From Pelosinus sp. UFO1 (lineage in GTDB: Bacteria > Bacillota > Negativicutes > DSM-13327), in the NCBI RefSeq assembly GCF_000725345.1, contig NZ_CP008852.1, positions 124,001 to 188,000 of the forward strand: DNA of 64,000 nt, read 5' to 3'. Position 1 is the stretch's first letter; each line of letters starts with the position of its first letter. Under the pieces are notes generated by a model, which had not been told where the DNA came from, did not search any database, and saw only the letters and a program-made list of their open reading frames with translations. A program made the translations under genes and the position numbers. Positions 228 to 63,793 of this stretch are shown one piece after another.

Positions 228-884
228 GTGGTAGTGAAAATTGCCTTAATTCACACAGTTCAAAGTGTTTTAGCTACTTTTGGTAACAGAATAAAAGACG
301 CTATCCCTAATGTGAAAGTGGTTAACACCCTTGACGAATTCTTGGCAAGTGATCCGGCTGAAAAGGGAGAGTTTACCGTTAATAATATGCAGAGGTTATT
401 CTCGATTGTAAAATGTGCGGAAATGACTAAACCGGATGCAATTATTGTAACCTGTTCTACACTATCTCCAACAATAGAAAAAATCTCTCCTTTTATTAAA
501 GTACCAATCATTACAATCGATGAAGGGATGATACGCAAAGCAGTCGAAATTGGGTTGAAAATTACTATCCTGGCAACTGCAGACAGTACAGTTGAGCCGA
601 CAAAAAATAAGCTCATTAGTGAAGCTCAAAAAATTAGTAAGGATATCGATATATCCGTGATAGTCTGCCCTAAAGCATATGTGGCGATGAAAGCAGGAGA
701 TCAGCAGTATCATGATGAGATAGTAAAAGGAAGCGCACTTGAAATAAAACAGCAGGACGTGGTGATATTAGCCCAGGCATCTATGGCCCATTTAGAGGAA
801 GATATACAAACGATCTGCGGATGCACGGTACTTTCTAGTCCTAGTATGTGTATCAAGCAGTTAAAAGAAACCTTAAAAAAGTAA
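228..884 (+). CDS. Asp/Glu/hydantoin racemase-superfamily protein
   Basis: A 218-residue protein starting at GTG 228 behind AGGAGG (217-222). The VTCSTLSP segment (about residues 76-83) holds the first catalytic cysteine of the Asp/Glu racemase fold. The second half-site, where the family usually has a Cys-Thr-His motif, reads ILAQASMA, so the second cysteine is missing. Two-cysteine members racemise or isomerise amino acids and carboxylic acids; a one-cysteine member may have another activity, such as decarboxylation, or only bind ligand. It sits between a TIM-barrel isomerase and an organic-anion importer, which favours a role on a hydroxy or keto acid over one in cell-wall synthesis. Confidence 0.7.
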   Translation: MVVKIALIHTVQSVLATFGNRIKDAIPNVKVVNTLDEFLASDPAEKGEFTVNNMQRLFSIVKCAEMTKPDAIIVTCSTLSPTIEKISPFIKVPIITIDEGMIRKAVEIGLKITILATADSTVEPTKNKLISEAQKISKDIDISVIVCPKAYVAMKAGDQQYHDEIVKGSALEIKQQDVVILAQASMAHLEEDIQTICGCTVLSSPSMCIKQLKETLKK

Positions 885-958
885 CGCATCATAAGGGCAA
901 CTAAATCCCAATTAATCAGGCATTTCATTTAAGTGAATAGAGGAGAGGGGATTACAAA

Positions 959-2272
959 ATGTCAGAAAAGCCAACGAAAGTAAGGTATCTTGTTCTTTTT
1001 GTGGTGTGCTTAGTTTACTTAATTACATATCTTGACCGCGTGGCCATCTCAGTCGCTGCCCCATTAATGATGAAAGACTTCGGAATCAACAAACTGGAGT
1101 GGGGCCTCGTATTATCGGTGTTTTCCTGGACTTATGCTTCGTTTCAAATTCCAGTCGGATTGCTAGGTGATAAATTAGGTGCTCGTAAGGTTCTTGCCGG
1201 TATCGTCTGTCTTTGGTCGCTAATGACAGTTGCTACAGCTATGGCATGGAATTTCATGTCCCTGGTGGTAATAAGACTTTTGTTTGGTATTGGTGAAGCA
1301 GGGGCGTTTCCTACCGCAACTAGGGCATTTGCCCATTGGATGCCTTCCACAGAACGTGGTTTTGCTCAGGGTTTTACTCACGGAGCAGCAAGATTTGGTG
1401 GGGCGATTACACCTTTGATAGTCGCGGTTATTATGAATGCGTGGGGTTGGCATTCAGTATTTTATATTTTTGCGGCTATTGGTTTAGCGTGGGCTGGGTT
1501 TTGGTATTTTTGGTATCGTGATAAACCGAGTGAGTATAAGGAAAGATGGGGCGGTATTAACCAAGCTGAAATGGATCTTATTGATGGCGGGAAATCAAGT
1601 AAAAAGGCTGCCCCAAAACTGCCGTTTAAGGCTCTCTTAAAAAGTAAGAACATGTGGTTTCTCAGCTTGAGTTTTCCAACGTATTGCTATACTGTCTGGA
1701 TATTTATGACTTGGTTGCCTGCTTTTCTTGTTGAAGCGAAAGGCTTCAGTGTCATTAAGATGGGTATTTTCGCTAGCATACCCTTGTTTGCCGGAGTAGT
1801 TGGTGACACCCTAGGAGGTTGGTTATCTGATAGAATCTGGAAAAAGACTGGGAATGGTAAGTTTGCTCGTCGGGTGGTGCCGATGGCAGGCATGTTAGTA
1901 GCAGCGGCTTTTTTGATTCCTGGTGCATTGACTGATAATGCATACATGGCAGTGTTTTATCTGGCTTGTTCACTATTTGGCCTAGAAATGGCGGTCGGTG
2001 TTTACTGGGCTGTGTGCCTGGATGTAGGGCATGAGTATGCTGGGACAGTATCTGGAATGATGAATACCATTGGCAATATCGGTTCTGCATTATCTCCATT
2101 GGTATTTGGTGCCATCCTTCAATTTACAGGATCATGGGTATATCCCTTCCTTGTTGCCAGTACAATTTTGGTTATTGGCGCTCTGCTTTGGTTAAAAGTT
2201 GATCCAACGCTTTCTATTGCAGAGGAATTGAATTTGGAAAAACTTGAAAATGAACAAAAGGTTGTAATGTAA
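959..2272 (+). CDS. MFS transporter, anion:cation symporter (hexuronate/aldonate-type) family
   Basis: 437 residues with about 12 hydrophobic segments. The TM1 region reads YLDRVAISVAAPLM, the signature of the ACS branch of the major facilitator superfamily (ExuT, GudP, DgoT relatives), which import sugar acids and other organic anions with protons. The glycine-rich FGIGEAGAFPTATRAFAHW segment near TM4 also fits this branch. ATG 959 follows a GAGGAGAGGGG purine run. It lies within the catabolic cluster and is the likely importer of its substrate, so a hexuronate, hexarate or aldonate is the best guess, but sequence alone does not fix it. Confidence 0.85.
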   Translation: MSEKPTKVRYLVLFVVCLVYLITYLDRVAISVAAPLMMKDFGINKLEWGLVLSVFSWTYASFQIPVGLLGDKLGARKVLAGIVCLWSLMTVATAMAWNFMSLVVIRLLFGIGEAGAFPTATRAFAHWMPSTERGFAQGFTHGAARFGGAITPLIVAVIMNAWGWHSVFYIFAAIGLAWAGFWYFWYRDKPSEYKERWGGINQAEMDLIDGGKSSKKAAPKLPFKALLKSKNMWFLSLSFPTYCYTVWIFMTWLPAFLVEAKGFSVIKMGIFASIPLFAGVVGDTLGGWLSDRIWKKTGNGKFARRVVPMAGMLVAAAFLIPGALTDNAYMAVFYLACSLFGLEMAVGVYWAVCLDVGHEYAGTVSGMMNTIGNIGSALSPLVFGAILQFTGSWVYPFLVASTILVIGALLWLKVDPTLSIAEELNLEKLENEQKVVM

Positions 2273-2303
2273 AAAGCTAACTAAAAAATGAGAGGAATAC
2301 ATT

Positions 2304-2432
2304 ATGTGTCAAAGGCACAGATACAATCTGTGCCTCAATTATAAAGTAATAGAGATGCTCATCAAAGAGTATGAACGGATTTATCAATCCCTTGATGGAA
2401 ATATGGCGCAAAGCATGAAAGTATTGCTATAG
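2304..2432 (+). CDS. Possible small protein (42 aa) between transporter and transketolase genes
   Basis: A short frame starts at ATG 2304 behind GAGAGG (2291-2296) and ends with TAG at 2430-2432, giving 42 residues with a central lysine/glutamate-rich amphipathic stretch. Its first codons overlap a perfect 10-bp hairpin (2313-2322 with 2326-2335). I do not recognise the product. The frame may be accidental, with the hairpin being the real functional element. Confidence 0.25.
   Translation: MCQRHRYNLCLNYKVIEMLIKEYERIYQSLDGNMAQSMKVLL
2313..2335 (+). other. Perfect hairpin in the transporter-transketolase intergenic region
   Basis: AGGCACAGAT and ATCTGTGCCT pair over 10 bp around a 3-base loop. 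No T-run follows, so it is not a normal intrinsic terminator. A stem here could stabilise the transporter mRNA end or tune expression of the downstream transketolase genes. Confidence 0.55.
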
Positions 2433-2481
2433 GTTGGCATTTAATTTGAAAAATATTATTGAAAACAAGGAGGCTATTTGC

Positions 2482-3318
2482 ATGGCATTATCTGAGGAAA
2501 AAGTCAGTCAATTAAAAGAAATTACTAAAAAAATGCGTATTGATATTATTAAGACATTATACAAGGTGCAAACTGGTCATCCAGGGGGATCTTTATCAGC
2601 TGTAGAAATTATGACAACACTTTATTTTGGTCATATGCGGGTGGATTGTACCACACCGGGTTGTCCAGATCGAGATCGGTTCATCGCTTCGAAGGGACAT
2701 TGCGCACCAGTAGTCTATACTACACTGGCCTGTAAAGGTTACTTTCCTGCAGAAGAACTTGCTAATTTAAGGCAGCTAGACTGTATGCTTCAAGGTCATC
2801 CTGACATGAAACGTATTCCAGGGGTGGATTTGTCGACGGGTTCTTTGGGCCTCGGTCTGTCTGTTGGTGTTGGCTTAGCTTCAGCAGCTAAGCTGGATAA
2901 AAAAGACTATAACACCTATGTGCTCTTAGGAGATGGCGAGCTGCAGGAAGGACAAAATTGGGAAGCCTTCATGGCTGGCTCTAAATACAAATTAAACAAC
3001 CTAATTGCCATTGTTGACTATAACGGTGTTCAATTAGACGGCACAGTAGATGACGTAATGCCTCTTGGGAATTTACGCAAGAAATTTGAAGCCTTTGATT
3101 GGCATGTTATTGAATGCGATGGTCATGACCTAGTAGCTTTAGATAAAGCTTTTGAGATGGCTAAACAAGAAACAGGCATGCCATCAGTAATCATTGCAAA
3201 AACCGTAAAAGGTAAAGGCGTTTCCTTCATGGAAGGCAAAAACACCTGGCATGGCAAAGCCATTGGCAAGCAAGAATATGAAACAGCGATAGCAGAACTG
3301 GGAGGTTGCGTACAATGA
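2482..3318 (+). CDS. Transketolase, N-terminal (thiamine diphosphate-binding) subunit
   Basis: 278 residues from ATG 2482, which has AAGGAGG (2467-2473) just upstream; starts further upstream lack such a site. It matches the N-terminal half of transketolase: GHPGGSLSAVE near the start, SKGHCAP, a TGSLGLGLSVGVGLA segment and the ThDP/Mg signature GDGELQEG with the following D-Y-N-G. The partner half is the next gene, overlapping by ATGA. Split transketolases move a C2 unit between sugar phosphates. Besides pentose-phosphate metabolism, they occur in dedicated sugar pathways, for example apulose-4-phosphate transketolase in D-apiose breakdown. The context here points to a dedicated catabolic role. 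Confidence 0.93.
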   Translation: MALSEEKVSQLKEITKKMRIDIIKTLYKVQTGHPGGSLSAVEIMTTLYFGHMRVDCTTPGCPDRDRFIASKGHCAPVVYTTLACKGYFPAEELANLRQLDCMLQGHPDMKRIPGVDLSTGSLGLGLSVGVGLASAAKLDKKDYNTYVLLGDGELQEGQNWEAFMAGSKYKLNNLIAIVDYNGVQLDGTVDDVMPLGNLRKKFEAFDWHVIECDGHDLVALDKAFEMAKQETGMPSVIIAKTVKGKGVSFMEGKNTWHGKAIGKQEYETAIAELGGCVQ

Positions 3319-4247
3319 AAGCAATGAGAGAAGCTTACGGTGAAGCACTTGTAGAATTGGGAAAAAAGAATACCCAGGTTGTAGCGCTTGATGCGGATGT
3401 ATCTGGTTCTACCCGTTCTGCATTATTTGGTAAGGCCTTTCCAGACAGGTTTTTCAATGTAGGGATTGCCGAAGGGAACATGGCAGCTATGGCTGCAGGA
3501 TTTGCTTTGGCAGAAAAGATTCCTTTTATTAATACCTTTGCTTTTTTAATGGCGGTGAGAGCAACGGACCCCATTCGTAGCCTCATTGCTTATAATAAAC
3601 TGAATGTTAAAGTGGTAGGTGCGTATGGCGGTTTTTCCGACTCTTATGATGGGGGCAGTCACCAAGCCATTGAAGATGTAGCCATCATGCGCTCCCTTCC
3701 CAATCTTAAGGTTGTTGTGCCAGCAGATGAGTATTCAGCCAGAGCTTCAGTTACAGCTGTTGCTGAATATATTGGCCCCGTGTATTTAAGACTGAGCAGA
3801 GCGGAAGTTCCTCCAGTGTATAGTGAGGAAAATTGTCCATTTGTTATTGGTAAAGGCAATGTCTTGGCAGAGGGTAAAAATGTGACTATTATTGCCAACG
3901 GTTATATGGTTCACCGGGCAATGGAAGCTAGAAGAATCCTGCTGGCTGAAGGTATTGAAGCGGAAGTCATTGATATGCATACCGTTAAGCCTATTGATAG
4001 CGAGTTAGTGATTAAATCGGCTACTAAAACTGGCGCGGTAGTCACTGCGGAAGAAGCGAGTGTCATTGGTGGCCTTGGTTCAGCAGTAGCTGAAGTGTTG
4101 ATAGCGAATAAACCTGTACCTATGGAATTTATAGGAGTTAAGGATGTTTTTGGTGAGTCTGGTGATTATAACGAGCTACTGGCTAAGCACGGACTTGATA
4201 CTCTGTCCATAGTAAAAGCTGCACGAAAGGTTATTGCCAAGAAATAA
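3315..4247 (+). CDS. Transketolase, C-terminal (pyrimidine-binding) subunit
   Basis: 310 residues from ATG 3315, overlapping the TGA of the N-terminal subunit in an ATGA junction, which suggests translational coupling of a 1:1 complex. GGGAGG lies at 3299-3304. Visible family features are ALDADVSGSTR near the start, FFNVGIAEGNMAAMAAG with the catalytic glutamate of the cofactor proton relay, the YDGGSHQAIEDVAIMRSLP segment, and a C-terminal domain beginning near residue 185. With its partner it makes a complete transketolase of 588 residues. It probably processes the phosphorylated product of the isomerases and dehydrogenase encoded around it. Confidence 0.93.
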   Translation: MKAMREAYGEALVELGKKNTQVVALDADVSGSTRSALFGKAFPDRFFNVGIAEGNMAAMAAGFALAEKIPFINTFAFLMAVRATDPIRSLIAYNKLNVKVVGAYGGFSDSYDGGSHQAIEDVAIMRSLPNLKVVVPADEYSARASVTAVAEYIGPVYLRLSRAEVPPVYSEENCPFVIGKGNVLAEGKNVTIIANGYMVHRAMEARRILLAEGIEAEVIDMHTVKPIDSELVIKSATKTGAVVTAEEASVIGGLGSAVAEVLIANKPVPMEFIGVKDVFGESGDYNELLAKHGLDTLSIVKAARKVIAKK

Positions 4248-4275
4248 AATATAAGCATTTTGGAGGCGATTATTC

Positions 4276-5187
4276 ATGAATGAATCCATTCGCAAATATA
4301 TGAGAGTAGGCTTAATCCACTTTATGGCTTATCCTGCTGTGATAAAAGGGGAAGGCCCTATTGAAGAAACCTTTAAAAAGGTTGCCGTTGACGACTATTT
4401 TGAAGTTGCTGAAATCACTTGGATGAAAGATAAAGAAGTAAGAAAAAGTGTCAAACAAATGATTGATACCTCTCATATGACAGTGACCTATGGTGGTCAA
4501 CCCCGCCTCTTAACAACTGGGTTTAACATCAATAATATTGATGAAGCTGGCCGCTTAACAGCTCTAGCGTCTCTGAAAGAAGGTATTGATGAAGCTTATG
4601 AAATGGGAGCAAAAGGTTTTGCTTTCTTGAGTGGCAATTATACAGAAGAGCAAAAAGAAGAAGCTTACCAAGCGCTCATTACATCTACGAAGGAATTATG
4701 CCGCTATGCTAAAGAAAAAGGCAATATGCCAGTAGTCCTAGAAGTTTTTGATTATGATGTGGACAAAAAATCACTTATTGGACCAGTAGACTTGGCCAAA
4801 CGATTTGCACAAGAGATGAGAGCCGAATACGATAACTTTGGCTTGATGGTAGATTTAAGCCATTTACCACTCCTCCATGAAACAGCGAAAGAGTCGCTGA
4901 TTCCGATTAAAGATTATATTATGCATGCTCATATGGGGAACTGTGTAGTGAAAGATCCATCCTGGCCTGCATATGGTGACGCTCATCCTCGATTTGGTTT
5001 CCCAGGTGGAGAAAGTGATGTTGATGAATTGGTAGAATATTTACGAGTGCTAATGGAGATTGGTTTTATCAGTAAAGAAAAACGCCCGATTGTTAGCTTT
5101 GAAGTAAAACCCTTCGGAAATGAAGATCCGGACCTTGTAGTTGCCAATGCTAAGAGAGTTTTGAATTTAGCGTGGGAAAAAGTCTAA
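4276..5187 (+). CDS. Sugar phosphate isomerase/epimerase-type TIM-barrel protein
   Basis: 303 residues from ATG 4276, with GGAGG at 4261-4265. It looks like a xylose-isomerase-like (AP endonuclease 2 fold) barrel with candidate metal ligands in VVLEVFD (glutamate), MVDLSHLPLL (aspartate and histidine), MHAHMGNC (histidine) and the late VSFEVKP strand (glutamate). Relatives act on keto sugars, sugar acids and hydroxypyruvate. It is the second such barrel in the cluster and is immediately upstream of a hydroxyacid dehydrogenase, suggesting consecutive steps. An isomerisation of a C4-C6 keto or hydroxy acid is plausible but unproven. Confidence 0.75.
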   Translation: MNESIRKYMRVGLIHFMAYPAVIKGEGPIEETFKKVAVDDYFEVAEITWMKDKEVRKSVKQMIDTSHMTVTYGGQPRLLTTGFNINNIDEAGRLTALASLKEGIDEAYEMGAKGFAFLSGNYTEEQKEEAYQALITSTKELCRYAKEKGNMPVVLEVFDYDVDKKSLIGPVDLAKRFAQEMRAEYDNFGLMVDLSHLPLLHETAKESLIPIKDYIMHAHMGNCVVKDPSWPAYGDAHPRFGFPGGESDVDELVEYLRVLMEIGFISKEKRPIVSFEVKPFGNEDPDLVVANAKRVLNLAWEKV

Positions 5188-5246
5188 TTACATTGATAGG
5201 ACTGAGAGAAGTATTAAAAATAAAAAAGAATTGAGAGTTGATAGTT

Positions 5247-6221
5247 ATGAAAGCAGTCGTACTTGACGGCTATACTTTAAACCCTGGAGATTTAAGCTGG
5301 AAAGCTTTAGAAGCAATGTGTGAAACCACTGCATATGACCGTACAGCCTATGATATATCCGGGCTGGACTTAATAATAGAAAGAGTGGGGGATGCTGAAG
5401 TTGTCTTCACCAACAAAACACCACTTACTGCAGAAGCGCTGAAAGCTATGCCTAACCTTAAATTTATTGGGGTACTTGCGACTGGTTACAATGTGGTTGA
5501 TGTAGATGCGGCGAAAGCACAAGGAATAGTTGTAACTAACATCCCTACCTATGGCACAGATGCTGTAGCCCAAATGGCCATTGCTCTTTTAATGGAAATG
5601 TGCCATCATGCGGGTGCACATAGCGATGCTGTTAAAAAAGGGGATTGGACAAATAACGTTGACTGGTGCTTCTGGAACTATCCACTCATCGAACTTGCCG
5701 GTAAAACCATGGGTATCATCGGCTTTGGTCGCATTGGGCAGGCAACAGCTAGAATTGCTCAAGCCCTTGGTATGAAGGTCTTAGCTTTTGATAGCTATCA
5801 GATAAAGGAACTAGAAAGTGTAACCCTAAAATATGTGGAACTCGATGAACTCCTCGCACAGTCTGATGTAATCAGTCTTCATTGTCCTTTATTTGAAAGC
5901 ACTAAAGGCATAATTAATAAGGAATCCTTGGCCAAGATGAAGCCAGGAGCAATGCTTATCAATACGTCAAGAGGCCCTCTTGTTGTGGAAGCAGATCTTG
6001 CGGAGGCCCTCAATAGCGGTAAGATTGCTGGAGCGGCTTTAGACGTAGTATCTTCAGAACCGATTAAGGCAGATAATCCCTTACTGATAGCCAAGAACTG
6101 CATTATTACACCTCATATTTCATGGGCTCCTAAGGAATCTCGTCAACGTCTGATGGATATTGCGATGGATAATCTAAGTCACTTTATTAACGGCAAACCG
6201 ATCAATGTGGTAAATAAATAA
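5247..6221 (+). CDS. D-isomer-specific 2-hydroxyacid dehydrogenase (glycerate dehydrogenase-like)
   Basis: 324 residues from ATG 5247; the ribosome site is modest (GAGAG, 5233-5237). The NAD-binding motif MGIIGFGRIGQATARIA fits GxGxxG, and the catalytic triad is visible as R in NTSRGPLV, E in SSEPI and H in HISWAP. Family members reduce 2-keto acids such as hydroxypyruvate or oxidise D-2-hydroxyacids with NAD. Here it could reduce hydroxypyruvate released by the pathway or oxidise the imported acid. It belongs to the same run of plus-strand genes as the transketolase and isomerases. Confidence 0.88.
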   Translation: MKAVVLDGYTLNPGDLSWKALEAMCETTAYDRTAYDISGLDLIIERVGDAEVVFTNKTPLTAEALKAMPNLKFIGVLATGYNVVDVDAAKAQGIVVTNIPTYGTDAVAQMAIALLMEMCHHAGAHSDAVKKGDWTNNVDWCFWNYPLIELAGKTMGIIGFGRIGQATARIAQALGMKVLAFDSYQIKELESVTLKYVELDELLAQSDVISLHCPLFESTKGIINKESLAKMKPGAMLINTSRGPLVVEADLAEALNSGKIAGAALDVVSSEPIKADNPLLIAKNCIITPHISWAPKESRQRLMDIAMDNLSHFINGKPINVVNK

Positions 6222-6258
6222 TTCAGTCATAAAGAACTTTCATAAGGCAATATCATAA

Positions 6259-6318
6259 TGGCGCAAAATATACGGCAGATTTGATACTATAAATAGCTGC
6301 TTGCTGTATTTTGCGCCA
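6259..6318. repeat. 12-bp perfect inverted repeat upstream of the chemoreceptor gene
   Basis: TGGCGCAAAATA (6259-6270) and TATTTTGCGCCA (6307-6318) are exact reverse complements separated by 36 bases; inner bases pair further imperfectly. There is no T-run after it, so it resembles an operator pair or a structured leader. It lies just before the gene for the soluble chemoreceptor and could set the expression of that gene, pfk and the TSUP permease apart from the upstream genes. Confidence 0.6.
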
Positions 6319-6394
6319 AATTAATGAGTTCTCATTCTCATTTGTGGCGCGGAGTAAAGCAGATAAGTTATGCAAAACTGGAGGATTTGTCGAT

Positions 6395-7477
6395 ATGGAA
6401 CCGATTCTATTCATAGCACCTTCACAAATTGTTGCTGAAATTGTGAAAAGAATTACTGTCGAAATGAGTGTGAGTTTTCCGATTGAAATCGGCAGTAATC
6501 AGCAAGCACTAGAATTAGCTAACGCCTATCCAGAGATTAATATAATCATAGCTCGAGGAGGGACCGCTGAAATCATAAAACAACAATCTGGAAAAACCGT
6601 AATTGAGATCGCCGCCTCAGTGACGGATCTTTTGCTTGCAGTTTTCCAGATGATCAATACTGGCCAAAGAAAGATTGGGGTTGTCGCTAGAAAAAATATA
6701 ATTGACGATGTTGTGCAGGATTTCCAGTATGAAAATCTACAGATTTTCTTTCGTCCATGTAAGAGTGATGAAGAAGTAAGGCAAGCAATACAGGATCTCA
6801 CTCAATTGGGAGTGGAAGGAATTGTTGGCGATGGCGCAGGATATAAGATCGGAAAAAACAGGGGCTTACTAGCTGAACAAATTGCTTCAGGCCCTACGTC
6901 CGTAAAAAGAGCGATACATGAAGCATTAAGGATTGCCAGGGCTCAGGAATTAGAACGTTCGCGGGATAATAAAAGGGCGGGGCAGATTCAGCGGCATGTA
7001 AGTGACATTTATATTGATCTTGAACAAGCAGTGGCAGCTATAGAAGAGTTAACGGCAAGTTCCCAAGAAATCGCGGCAACAAGTCAAGAAACAGCCGCTA
7101 TTGCCAAAATTGCGCATCAAAAAGTAAGGAATACTACAGCAATATTAGATATCATCCGGCGAGTAGCTGAGCAAAGCAATTTATTAGGACTGAATGCTGC
7201 CATTGAAGCGGCACGTGCTGGAGAATATGGGCGAGGATTTTCCGTCGTTGCTGAAGAGATTCGTAAACTAGCCGATGAAAGTCATCGTTCGGCCAACCAT
7301 ATCAATGCAACCCTAAATGAATTCCGCGATTCCGTTGAAGGAGTATTAAAAAATGTAGAACAGAGCAATACAATTACCCAAGAACAAGCTACAGCTACAC
7401 AAGAAATAGCTAGGATGCTGGACAATTTAAAAGAAATAGGCCAAAAACTCGTAGATATGGCAGAAAAACCGCTCTAG
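6395..7477 (+). CDS. Soluble methyl-accepting chemotaxis protein with PrpR_N sensor domain
   Basis: 360 residues from ATG 6395, with GGAGG at 6380-6384. No transmembrane segment or signal peptide is visible. Residues about 1-185 resemble the PrpR_N ligand domain of propionate-type sigma-54 activators, including the [12 protein letters not shown] strand. A short helix leads into a methyl-accepting signalling hairpin (about 205-355) with a clear tip, [19 protein letters not shown] followed by [16 protein letters not shown], the region that docks CheA/CheW. It should report an internal metabolite to the chemotaxis machinery. Its place between the hydroxyacid dehydrogenase and pfk suggests it senses an intermediate of this pathway. 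A paralogous sensor domain sits in the sigma-54 activator near the right end. Confidence 0.85.
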
Positions 7478-7524
7478 TTTTCTTTGAATTGCGAGATAAT
7501 ACGATTCACAATAGGAGGGAAAAG

Positions 7525-8490
7525 ATGAGTAATAAGCGAATCGCGATTCTGACTAGTGGTGGAGATGCTCCAGGAATGAATGCTGCTATTCGGGCAATTA
7601 CGCGAAAAGGACTTTATCATGGTTTTGAAGTATTTGGGGTTGAAAAAGGTTTTCAAGGATTAATAAACGGAACCTTTTTACCCATGAGCTTAGAATCGGT
7701 AGCTGGTATTCTTGATCAAGGAGGGACTATACTCAAAACAGCACGGAGTGAAGAATTTAGGACTGAGGCTGGGCAGGCGGTAGCTTTAAGGAATTTGGAA
7801 AACCAGTTGATTGACGTAGTGGTCGTAATTGGCGGTGATGGGTCTATGCAAGGTGCTATGAGATTGTCTGAACTAGGCGTCAATACGATCGTGATTCCGG
7901 CGAGTATCGATAATGATATGCCTGGTACAGAATATTCTATTGGATTTGATACAGCGTTGAATACAATATTAGAAGCCGCTAATAAAATTAGAGATACGAG
8001 TATCTCCCATGATAAGGTTGCCATTGTAGAAGTCATGGGCAGAAACTGCGGAAATTTAGCATTAATGTCAGGCCTTGCATGTGGTGCAGAAACAATCCTG
8101 ATACCGGAGATTACCAATGACATAGGGGAAGTCTGTGAAGAGTTGCTGGAAAGTTATAAACGAGGCAAGTTGTACCGTGTTGTTATGTTAGCTGAGGGCG
8201 TTGGTAGGGGGCATGATATTGCAACACAAATAGCAGCGCGAACAAATCTTCCTATTTCGGTCACAGTGCTCGGTTATATTCAACGTGGTGGTAATCCAAC
8301 AGCTATGGATAATATTATGGCCAGCCGCATGGGGGCAGCAGCCATTGATGAGATCATTGCAAATAAGAGTGATTTTTTGGTAGCGATGAGACATGGAAAG
8401 TTAGTTTCAGTGTCTTATGGTAAAGAAAATGAGTTTCAACCCGGTGTCGATCTCGGAGAATATGAGCTTTCCCGAGTTTTGGGAATGTAG
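7525..8490 (+). CDS. pfkA: ATP-dependent 6-phosphofructokinase
   Basis: 321 residues from ATG 7525, with AGGAGGG at 7513-7519. Family motifs are ILTSGGDAPGMNAA at the N-terminus, GGDGS (the glycine typical of ATP rather than pyrophosphate use), a catalytic loop reading PASIDNDMPGT where most enzymes have P-x-T-I-D-N-D, then VEVMGRNCG and YIQRGG. It phosphorylates fructose 6-phosphate, or possibly a related ketose or sugar-acid phosphate. Lying in a catabolic cluster rather than next to pyk, it may be a second, pathway-linked copy. The Thr-to-Ser change in the loop is conservative. Confidence 0.9.
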   Translation: MSNKRIAILTSGGDAPGMNAAIRAITRKGLYHGFEVFGVEKGFQGLINGTFLPMSLESVAGILDQGGTILKTARSEEFRTEAGQAVALRNLENQLIDVVVVIGGDGSMQGAMRLSELGVNTIVIPASIDNDMPGTEYSIGFDTALNTILEAANKIRDTSISHDKVAIVEVMGRNCGNLALMSGLACGAETILIPEITNDIGEVCEELLESYKRGKLYRVVMLAEGVGRGHDIATQIAARTNLPISVTVLGYIQRGGNPTAMDNIMASRMGAAAIDEIIANKSDFLVAMRHGKLVSVSYGKENEFQPGVDLGEYELSRVLGM

Positions 8491-8602
8491 AGATGCTTTG
8501 GATTCTATAGTTTGCCGAAAAGCGTTGCAAAGCGGACTCAACATTATATAATATTGTTGTTGGGGTTTCACTCTCTTGGTCATGAAGAAGGGGCGTAGAA
8601 TT

Positions 8603-9361
8603 ATGCTGATTGCTCTTGTAATGTTTGTTTTAGGATTATTACTTGGTTTTGTTGGTGCCGGGGGAGCGGGCGTTGTTATTGCGGTTTTAACCGTATTATT
8701 CGGTATTCCAATACACACTGCTTTGGGAACATCGCTTAGCGCGATGATATTTACCACTCTGTCTGGCGCATACAGTCATTTTCGCGAAGGTAATGTGGAG
8801 GTGAAAAATGGAATAGCTGTTGGTGTTTTTGGGGCAATAGGTGCTTTTATTGGATCGCAAATTGCATCTGGCCTGGCTGCCAAAGATCTCAAATGGTTGA
8901 CGGCTTGTATGTTGTTTTTATCAGCTATTTTGCTTTGGCTTAAAATCTTTTTTGCTTCTAAGGGAATCTTCTCAAGAATTGAAAGTAAATCTGCTCCAGT
9001 AGGGTGGAAGTTTTGGGTAACTGCCTGCGGCTTGGGAATTTTTACAGGAATTTTATCAGGAACCTTTGGAATTGGTGCCACTCCATTTATCCAAATCGGT
9101 TTATTAGTATTCTTTAATATGTCGATTCATCAGTCTGCGGGTACAACCATGCTTATCATTATGCCGATTGCTTTATTGGGTGGTTTAGGTTATTTGTCAG
9201 CTGGTTATTTGGACATATCGTTGCTTCTCAAGGTAACAATAGGGCTGATGGTTGGGGCCTACGTTGGGGCAAAATTCACAAAACGCCTAGACCCTTCTAT
9301 TTTAAAGGTTTCTATGGTGTCGGTACCGATATTTGGTGGAATTTTATTACTATTTGGCTAG
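8603..9361 (+). CDS. TSUP (TauE/SafE) family permease
   Basis: 252 residues if ATG 8603 is used (GAAGAAGGGG upstream at 8585-8593); ATG 8582 would add seven residues. It is hydrophobic throughout, about 7-8 membrane segments, with the family's two internal halves marked by GFVGAGGAGVV near the start and GILSGTFGIGATPF in the middle. TSUP proteins move sulfite, sulfonates or organic acids, often as exporters. It is the last gene of the cluster before a strong terminator, so it may export a small anion product, but co-transcription is inferred only from spacing. Confidence 0.8.
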   Translation: MLIALVMFVLGLLLGFVGAGGAGVVIAVLTVLFGIPIHTALGTSLSAMIFTTLSGAYSHFREGNVEVKNGIAVGVFGAIGAFIGSQIASGLAAKDLKWLTACMLFLSAILLWLKIFFASKGIFSRIESKSAPVGWKFWVTACGLGIFTGILSGTFGIGATPFIQIGLLVFFNMSIHQSAGTTMLIIMPIALLGGLGYLSAGYLDISLLLKVTIGLMVGAYVGAKFTKRLDPSILKVSMVSVPIFGGILLLFG

Positions 9362-61623: not shown

Positions 61624-61660
61624 AAAGACGGTATGACATTAAATTTGTCATACCGTCTTT
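61624..61660. terminator. Bidirectional terminator between VOC and sigma-54 activator genes
   Basis: AAAGACGGTATGACA (61624-61638) pairs perfectly with TGTCATACCGTCTTT (61646-61660). The right arm overlaps the stop codon and last codons of the leftward activator gene. Confidence 0.85.
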
Positions 61661-63525
61661 TGTATACCGAAACGCTTGAGCTTGCGCCAAAGAGTAGAGC
61701 GACTTATGCCAAGTATTTTTGCTGCTTCTGCGTATTTTCCTTTTGTCAGGGCGAGAGCTTTTTTGATTTCCTCTAACTCATTAGGCAGGATATCAGCATG
61801 GTTATCGTTATTGTCTTGTTGATCCCCAAGTAATCTATTAATAATGGCTGCATCAATCGTTTCAATTTTATGTACGGCGATGACTCGTTCAATTATATTT
61901 TGCAATTCACGTATGTTGCCAGGCCATGTATATTCAGTAAGCGCTTTTATGGCGGAGGGAGCAAGTTTTAAGTGATGTTTAATAAAACCTTTATGTTCCT
62001 TTAAGAAGAATTGAGCTAGTAATTTAATATCTTCTTTTCGATTCCGCAAGGGAGGAATTCTAAGTTGTAAGACATTGAGGCGATAATATAAATCCGCTCT
62101 AAATTTATTTTCATTTACGAGATTTTTTAGGTTTTTATTCGTGGCAGCAATAACGCGAACGTCAATTGGAATAACACGGTCACTGCCAAGTCTCATCACT
62201 TTTTTCTCTTGTACAATACGTAGTAGCTTACCTTGTGTCACATACTCCATCTCGGCAATTTCATCTAGAAAGATGGTACCGCCATGGGCGACTTCGAATA
62301 ATCCTGGTTTCCCTTTTGGATTAGCACCAGTAAACGCTCCTCCTACATAGCCAAATAGTTCACTCTCTAGTATTTGACTAGGGAGGGCAGCGCAGTTAAT
62401 AGCGACAAAGGGACCTTGGTGGCGTTCACTGTAGTTGTGAATACTTTGGGCAAATACCTCTTTACCCGTACCTGTTTCACCAATAATTAAAATAGAGGAA
62501 TGAGTTAAGGCGAAATCTTTTGCCATTTCAATGGTTGGTATTAGTTCTGTACTTGTACTCTCAATATTTTTGAAAGAATAATTTGTAATATGCCCGAAAT
62601 CATAAATACGGTGTCTTACCCGAGCTTCCATTTGTTGAATTTGAGTTACATCTTGAAACGTGACAACAGCCCCTACCGTAGTATTGTTGACGACAATGGC
62701 GATTTTGTTGCAAAGAACGTCAACCTCATTAATTTTTAGAATGTGTGCTAAATCATCTTTTCCCGTATGCATGACTTGTTTCAGGTTAAGTTCAGGCCAA
62801 ACCTCAGCAATGTTCTTGCCTGTAGCCTTAATGCTGTTAATGCCTGTAATCTGCTCTGCAATGGGGTTGAAAAAAGTGATACGATACTGGCTGTCAACAG
62901 AGATGATCCCTTCATAGGCATAATTAAGGACTGCTCGGAATAGGCTGGTCTTTTCTTTTTCTAAATTACGTGCATGGGCAATTCGTTTTGCTTCTTGTGC
63001 TGCCTGTAGAATTCCTTCCGCACCACTTTCAATTAATTCGAAGGGGTAGTCCCGTTTTTGCGTGACCTGTTTTGTAATAAATCCGCCAATAACGACGTCC
63101 ACGCCATCTTGGAAAGCCTGAGACACTTGGGTATCTGCCTCTTCTTCAGCATCAATCGGATAAAGTCTAATGTCTACTCCTAAGATTGGACTCAAACAAT
63201 CGGCTTCTTGGAGTAAAGAAGAAAAGGTAACAGCTCCGATAGTGCGTCCGTGTAACTTGGCCTTCTCAACGGTACGAATAATATCAAACCCTGTGATGGG
63301 AATTTCGACAACCGTAATTTCCAGTCCCGCATTTCTAATAGCAGTAGCAGTACCGCCGCGGGAGATGATAATTTCCGTACCTTTGGAACAAAGAGCAGTG
63401 GCAATAGCAACGCCCTCGTGGAGTAGACCTTTCACGATATGTATATCGCTGTGATGAGTCTTAAATAATTGACGAGCGCTTTCAAACAAGCTCATGTCTG
63501 GAGCGATAAATGCGATAAGGGACAT
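61648..63525 (-). CDS. Sigma-54-dependent activator with PrpR_N and PAS domains
   Basis: 625 residues from ATG at 63525, with AGGAGGC upstream on the minus strand; the frame is open further but without such a site. Domains: PrpR_N ligand domain (about 1-185, with IIISRGGTATAI), PAS (about 205-310, FNPIAEQITGINS), AAA+ sigma-54 activation domain (about 330-570: Walker A GETGTGKE about 346, GAFTGA loop, Walker B GTIFLDEIAEM) and a C-terminal Fis-like helix-turn-helix (AEAAKILGISRSTLWRKLK). It uses ATP to open sigma-54 promoters when its ligand is present. The adjacent divergent DASS transporter has both a matching promoter and an inverted-repeat site, so it is the predicted target. Confidence 0.93.
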   Translation of the reverse strand: MSLIAFIAPDMSLFESARQLFKTHHSDIHIVKGLLHEGVAIATALCSKGTEIIISRGGTATAIRNAGLEITVVEIPITGFDIIRTVEKAKLHGRTIGAVTFSSLLQEADCLSPILGVDIRLYPIDAEEEADTQVSQAFQDGVDVVIGGFITKQVTQKRDYPFELIESGAEGILQAAQEAKRIAHARNLEKEKTSLFRAVLNYAYEGIISVDSQYRITFFNPIAEQITGINSIKATGKNIAEVWPELNLKQVMHTGKDDLAHILKINEVDVLCNKIAIVVNNTTVGAVVTFQDVTQIQQMEARVRHRIYDFGHITNYSFKNIESTSTELIPTIEMAKDFALTHSSILIIGETGTGKEVFAQSIHNYSERHQGPFVAINCAALPSQILESELFGYVGGAFTGANPKGKPGLFEVAHGGTIFLDEIAEMEYVTQGKLLRIVQEKKVMRLGSDRVIPIDVRVIAATNKNLKNLVNENKFRADLYYRLNVLQLRIPPLRNRKEDIKLLAQFFLKEHKGFIKHHLKLAPSAIKALTEYTWPGNIRELQNIIERVIAVHKIETIDAAIINRLLGDQQDNNDNHADILPNELEEIKKALALTKGKYAEAAKILGISRSTLWRKLKRFGIQKTV

Positions 63526-63720
63526 AATTTGCCTCCTGTGAAACAAAATGCAACGATTTTCTCCTATTATAAAAGGTTGGCGGCTAGCTTGCAACACAAT
63601 TAATTGATCTGAATGTAGCTCTAAGATACTATTAGGTGGATTATAATAGAAAATTAATCTCACAAAGAATACGAGGTGAAACTAAGTGAGACGAACGTTG
63701 CGGTATGAAACGTTTTTCTG

Positions 63721-63757: not shown

Positions 63758-63777
63758 ATTGCTTGAAAAATCCGATG

Positions 63778-63793
63778 TGGCACGGCTTTTGCA
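63778..63793 (+). promoter_or_regulatory. Sigma-54 (-24/-12) promoter of the DASS transporter gene
   Basis: TGGCACG (63778-63784), four bases, TTGCA (63789-63793): a full match to the sigma-54 consensus with correct GG-GC spacing. It lies 47 bases before the transporter start codon. Confidence 0.93.

Follow-up and report, generated by a model that had tools for sequence, protein, structure and literature searches.

PrpR_N domains usually reside in gene activators of acid catabolism. In Pelosinus sp. UFO1, whose genome is a single contig of 5.1 Mb, one gene had been predicted to join such a domain to a chemoreceptor signalling hairpin and to lie within a catabolic operon, which raises the question of what this kind of sensor is doing on a chemoreceptor. 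We analysed the 64,000-nucleotide stretch of DNA that contains the gene (the window, to which all coordinates refer unless another locus is named), together with related loci. Our best explanation, which we consider probable, is that the gene encodes a soluble chemoreceptor that senses an intracellular metabolite. The architecture, fold, signalling tip, recurrence and genomic context behind this explanation were computed, and from them we infer taxis.

A soluble chemoreceptor with a PrpR_N sensor

The gene and the parts of its product are listed below.

6395..7477, + strand, PrpR_N-MCP soluble chemoreceptor of 360 aa (Pfam PrpR_N and MCPsignal; AlphaFold2 model)
6467..6952, + strand, PrpR_N sensor domain, residues 25-186 (PF06506, 115 bits; PDB 2q5c, 2pju)
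7034..7099, + strand, three heptad-spaced methylation-like motifs, residues 214-235 (pattern [ASTG]xx[EQ][EQ]xx[ASTG])
7115..7438, + strand, MCPsignal match in the cytosolic hairpin, residues 241-348 (PF00015, 100 bits)
7181..7240, + strand, hairpin tip, the CheA/CheW-contact region, residues 263-282 (nearly all columns invariant or almost so in 11 fusions)

The coordinates of the open reading frame are exact: it begins with an ATG at 6395, behind a GGAGG Shine-Dalgarno sequence at 6380-6384, and its stop codon ends at 7477. Both Pfam domains score far above their cut-offs, PrpR_N with an E-value of 3e-33 and 115.1 bits (cut-off 29.1) over profile positions 4-166 of 167, which is the full length, and MCPsignal with an E-value of 2e-28 and 100.1 bits (curated cut-off 34.6). 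The sigma-54 ATPase and DNA-binding domains are absent from the receptor, which scores 46.6 bits with the NCBIfam PrpR model, against a cut-off of 499.

In an AlphaFold2 model based on 11 relatives (mean pLDDT 78.8), residues 1-165 form a two-part alpha/beta sensor, followed by a single unbroken helix (167-278), a tip (279-280) and a return helix (281-357). The return arm has 77 residues, or about 11 heptads, so the hairpin is a short one. Among PDB structures, the sensor matches 2q5c, from an NtrC-family regulator of C. acetobutylicum, with Z 20.5 across 182 residues (sequence E-value 8e-16), and 2pju, from PrpR of E. coli, with Z 18.4 across 181 residues (sequence E-value 2e-9); both share its fold and family. 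In those two proteins the sensor drives a sigma-54 ATPase and a DNA-binding domain, whereas in Pelosinus it is carried on a chemoreceptor hairpin and forms part of a distinct PrpR_N subfamily. The hairpin itself matches the soluble MCPs Tm14 of Thermotoga maritima (3g67) and YfmS of B. subtilis (9a72), with Z-scores that do not discriminate, being within chance reach of helical bundles. Tm14 and YfmS are likewise membrane-free with short hairpins, but they lack PrpR_N, and the match to each is confined to the hairpin (residues 115-284 of 286 in YfmS).

No plausible membrane segment was found in the receptor, either in the AlphaFold2 model, in which a coiled coil is the only element besides the soluble alpha/beta domain, or by hydropathy. 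The one local hydropathy maximum (1.87, from residue 69) coincides with a strand and a helix inside the soluble alpha/beta core; the maxima of ten relatives are 1.15-1.64. We take the tip to be equivalent to Tsr residues N381, E385 and R388. At least one of the first two methylation-like motifs is present in all 11 aligned relatives, and the motifs lie nearer the tip than the Tsr sites do. By domain, tip and membrane-free criteria, applied to the sequence and the model, the protein is a cytosolic chemoreceptor, and control of CheA is predicted. The original prediction of a soluble PrpR_N-MCP fusion thus held, both in the search for the two domains that it had proposed and in the structure prediction, where the N-terminus proved to be PrpR_N-like (Z 18-20 against 2q5c and 2pju).

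Distribution and genomic context of the fusion

Class and phylum samples together yielded 17 intact PrpR_N-MCP fusions and a single broken copy. In the class sample, 8 of 380 genomes carry full-length fusions, as 11 genes that are 46-56% identical overall, and genome G309 carries the broken copy; the phylum sample of 398 genomes added six. Both samples are even draws rather than complete sets, and the census is one of Bacillota. The fusions are sporadic, with members of the same genus lacking them. A scan of genome contigs with the single receptor gave no match; with the N-terminal alignment, the matches listed were all from members of this class. On plasmids with PrpR_N we saw only activators, or a gene that was unannotated or unlisted, and none was seen to be a receptor. 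A single origin of all receptors is weakly allowed (support 69/76). At the G309 locus (L090, 4560-8277), a PrpR_N receptor and a PrpR_N activator both look broken, with short or split frames, which could be decay or an error of the draft assembly.

About half of the fusions lie within organic- or sugar-acid catabolic operons. In the most regular context, a Na+/sulfate-family transporter and a two-subunit aconitase-type hydratase are followed by the receptor; this arrangement is found at three Anaerospora loci (L083-L085) and at L086, where the transporter and hydratase assignments were confirmed with Pfam at L085 only and come from sequence similarity at L083, L084 and L086. Elsewhere the receptor has a TRAP transporter and two hydroxyacid dehydrogenases on one side and an acyl-CoA synthetase on the other (L088), adjoins enolase-superfamily, DapA-like and GarR-like proteins (L060), is 3' of CitG with a small ORF between them (L119), or has an MFS transporter next to it (L120, L121). 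Around half of the relatives have orphan-like or transporter-only neighbours (L061, L062, L087, L118, L120-L123). Pathway names, for these loci and for the host gene run below, are family matches, many of them below equivalog cut-offs or by similarity only.

A PrpR_N sigma-54 activator is nearby at 6 of 18 loci, where 0.23 would be expected from the density in the host (Poisson P ~2e-7, an estimate that takes related loci as independent). Occurrence at random genomic places had been named as an outcome that would count against a link to catabolism, and the neighbourhood survey indicates that placement is not random: the fusion recurs in acid operons, often with the activator.

The gene run around the receptor

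The features that frame the receptor gene in the host are as follows.

L059:5280-5296, sigma-54 promoter-like site of the receptor's gene run (pattern scan, 12/13)
5238..6221, + strand, D-2-hydroxyacid dehydrogenase, upstream neighbour (PF02826, PF00389)
6259..6318, no strand assigned, inverted repeat TGGCGCAAAATA / TATTTTGCGCCA between the dehydrogenase and receptor genes (repeat search and folding)
7525..8490, + strand, 6-phosphofructokinase, downstream neighbour (PF00365, PFKA_ATP)

As had been claimed, the receptor gene is flanked by dehydrogenase and pfk genes, both recognised with Pfam. The gene run to which they belong starts before the window and spans L059:3125-8189 and window positions 228-8490. 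At its head, ~3 kb upstream of the window start, is a PrpR_N sigma-54 activator (L059:3125-5029). The sigma-54 site is followed by genes for a PdxA-like dehydrogenase, two TIM-barrel proteins, a racemase-like protein and an MFS transporter, then by the split transketolase, a third TIM barrel, the D-2-hydroxyacid dehydrogenase, the receptor and pfk. One of the first two TIM-barrel proteins scores 206 bits with the model for the 5-keto-L-gluconate epimerase IolO, below the cut-off of 300.

The original prediction had also tied the receptor to the split transketolase. A search with the TIM-barrel protein of the operon turned up homologous clusters in a further ten genomes of this class. In two of these clusters the TIM-barrel protein is 91-94% identical to that of the host and the receptor is not adjacent; in the closest one (L169, proteins 91-94% identical), other genes follow the dehydrogenase. 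No receptor was found within the sequence around the L170-L174 clusters, several of which are on short contigs, and the L171 cluster comes from a genome (G039) whose receptor is on another contig. The proposed link to the split transketolase is therefore not upheld, and a receptor that is a conserved part of this operon is ruled out by the receptor-less clusters of relatives. Their existence makes the receptor an accessory addition, not a core component, and on comparison of the sequences it would either have joined this operon in the lineage of the host or have been lost in other lineages.

A gap of 173 nt separates the dehydrogenase gene from the receptor gene. The first two arms of the inverted repeat, TGGCGCAAAATA and TATTTTGCGCCA, align with sequence after the same dehydrogenase in the receptor-less relative L169, and as RNA the repeat folds better than shuffled sequences (z -3.2). 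We considered whether the repeat is a terminator; the terminator scan found no terminator-like site in 5900-8700, and hence none in that stretch before the receptor. A third arm, TGGCGCGGAGTAAAGCA at 6345-6361, pairs with the inverted repeat in the host; across 6259-6361, alternating arms TGGCGCAAAATA, TATTTTGCGCCA and TGGCGCGGAGTAAAGCA could give mutually exclusive hairpins ahead of the receptor. With a gap of this size and a conserved inverted repeat in it, co-transcription of the receptor with the gene run is unsure.

Sensor subfamily and likely ligand

At the other end of the window is another PrpR_N activator, with a divergent operon.

61648..63663, - strand, far PrpR_N sigma-54 activator, of a different PrpR_N subfamily (Pfam; tree)
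63777..63793, + strand, sigma-54 promoter-like site of the operon divergent from the far activator (pattern scan, 12/13)

It had been suggested that this activator carries the same domain as the receptor. This is correct in that PrpR_N is present (Pfam), but the subfamily is different. In a tree of 54 PrpR_N domains (18 receptors and 36 activators), the 18 receptors all group together with five activators, and a branch of length 0.97 with 100/100 support separates this group from the remaining 31 activators, which include both the local and the far activator of the host. The PrpR_N of the far activator is thus of the same family, not the same sensor type, and a sensor subfamily common to it and the receptor is ruled out by this branch. 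Since the subfamilies of the receptor and the local activator also differ, their ligands need not match.

The far activator is 77% identical to the activator beside the receptor-bearing operon at L086. Its divergent operon lies mostly past the window end and encodes a Na+/sulfate-family transporter and aconitase-type hydratase subunits (L098:1341-4607; host C1:187840-191106). Operons of this type carry a PrpR_N receptor in Anaerospora and at L086; the host copy is without one.

Four of the five sister activators adjoin a Zn-dependent dehydrogenase, and three of those four (L092, L093, L155) also adjoin tagaturonate-reductase-like and altronate/galactarate-dehydratase-like genes; one sister activator (L154) adjoins an ABC sugar transporter. 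These dehydrogenase, reductase and dehydratase neighbours suggest a hydroxy- or keto-acid ligand for the receptor, with the hydroxy-/keto-aldonate type as a candidate. Within the domain, Arg54-Gly55 is shared by all, or almost all, of the PrpR_N domains that were compared. Arg120 is invariant in the 17 receptors and present in four of the five sister activators, and it varies in the other domains. From this pattern the sensor looks functional, and the subfamily may have a ligand of its own.

A receptor with a working metabolite sensor could still owe its location in this gene run to chance, having been inserted after the dehydrogenase while reading a ligand of another pathway. Such an incidental location would fit the receptor-less transketolase/TIM-barrel/dehydrogenase clusters of relatives, a PrpR_N subfamily other than that of the local activator, the spread of relatives over several unrelated pathways, and an inverted repeat ahead of the receptor that is older than the insertion. 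We nevertheless think it unlikely, because placement in catabolic operons recurs at independent loci with different neighbours, and every linked pathway handles hydroxy or keto acids.

Proposed mode of action

Under our preferred explanation, a receptor for an intracellular metabolite, the sensor would bind an organic or sugar acid, or a keto or phospho intermediate, that arises during use of the operon substrate. Ligand binding would shift the continuous helix and alter CheA activity via the conserved tip, and cells would thereby remain where the operon substrate undergoes metabolism. The receptor gene would be an accessory at the end of a pre-existing catabolic gene run and, if co-transcribed from the local sigma-54 promoter, its product would be made mostly when the pathway is on.

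The receptor might instead act via CheA but not on flagella, for example in another chemosensory system of the host. There are ten CheW-domain proteins in the host, three of them of CheA size, and soluble receptors are reported to assemble into cytoplasmic arrays of their own (PMC3964821). Against this, no sequence feature links the receptor to a non-flagellar pathway, and we regard such an output as distinctly improbable. Sensing of the general energy or redox state, as by Aer-type or TlpD receptors, in place of a specific metabolite is less probable again: energy sensing is known among other soluble taxis receptors (PMC6978683, PMC4820699), but PrpR_N is a small-molecule-binding type of fold in which no cofactor motif was noted, and a ligand is indicated both by Arg120, which is specific to the subfamily, and by the variety of acid-catabolic neighbours.

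Other soluble chemoreceptors and known systems

Soluble chemoreceptors with other sensors are also encoded by the host, namely Diacid_rec (L003), PocR (L010) and a Rossmann sensor (L007) that is GFO_IDH_MocA-like, slightly under the cut-off; these sensors are mostly input domains of transcription regulators. Many Diacid_rec soluble chemoreceptors occur in relatives, and they are found in the same genomes as PrpR_N receptors. They follow the same design, with a regulator sensor (CdaR-type) on the same kind of short hairpin, but differ in the fold of the sensor, which belongs to the Cache superfamily (PMC4822843). Upadhyay et al. tabulated 30 chemoreceptors among 1274 Diacid_rec proteins (PMC4822843), so the principle of a regulator sensor on a chemoreceptor is known. 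Our search for PrpR_N-chemoreceptor fusions found nothing relevant in the literature covered, which had few subscription papers; in those papers, neither the PrpR_N branch nor its tendency to lie in operons appears to have been described. In Comamonas testosteroni, MCP2201 mediates metabolism-dependent taxis to a substrate by binding its metabolites, and the receptors of that organism are mostly of the membrane class with periplasmic sensors (PMC6600141). MCP2201 and the Pelosinus receptor, as proposed here, would both be metabolite-linked, but in Pelosinus the sensor is a soluble domain from the PrpR_N family.

Several of these loci have features of their own. A CheW gene follows the PocR-domain soluble chemoreceptor by 38 nt (L010; L096:4499-6090), and the L007 protein (L094:6858-7547) combines an oxidoreductase-type Rossmann domain and a chemoreceptor hairpin in 229 aa. 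A sigma-54 activator at L063:5659-7365 has an N-terminus that looks Rossmann-like by eye. At L097:5604-8733, a soluble chemoreceptor with an unassigned N-terminus is followed by a short gene and then a phosphofructokinase-like gene, echoing the receptor-pfk order.

As a tentative generalisation, it is possible that in Bacillota the regulator inputs PrpR_N, Diacid_rec, PocR and Rossmann have repeatedly been put on one type of short soluble hairpin, in the operon whose metabolite each reads. The majority of chemoreceptors studied so far sense the outside of the cell across the membrane; if this generalisation is true, taxis would be wired pathway by pathway, from within the cell. Through a receptor family that takes over sensors from catabolic activators and lies within the same operons, taxis would have immediate access to pathway intermediates inside the cell. 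Metabolism-dependent chemotaxis would then become testable with a defined soluble sensor, for which the operon context points to candidate acids.
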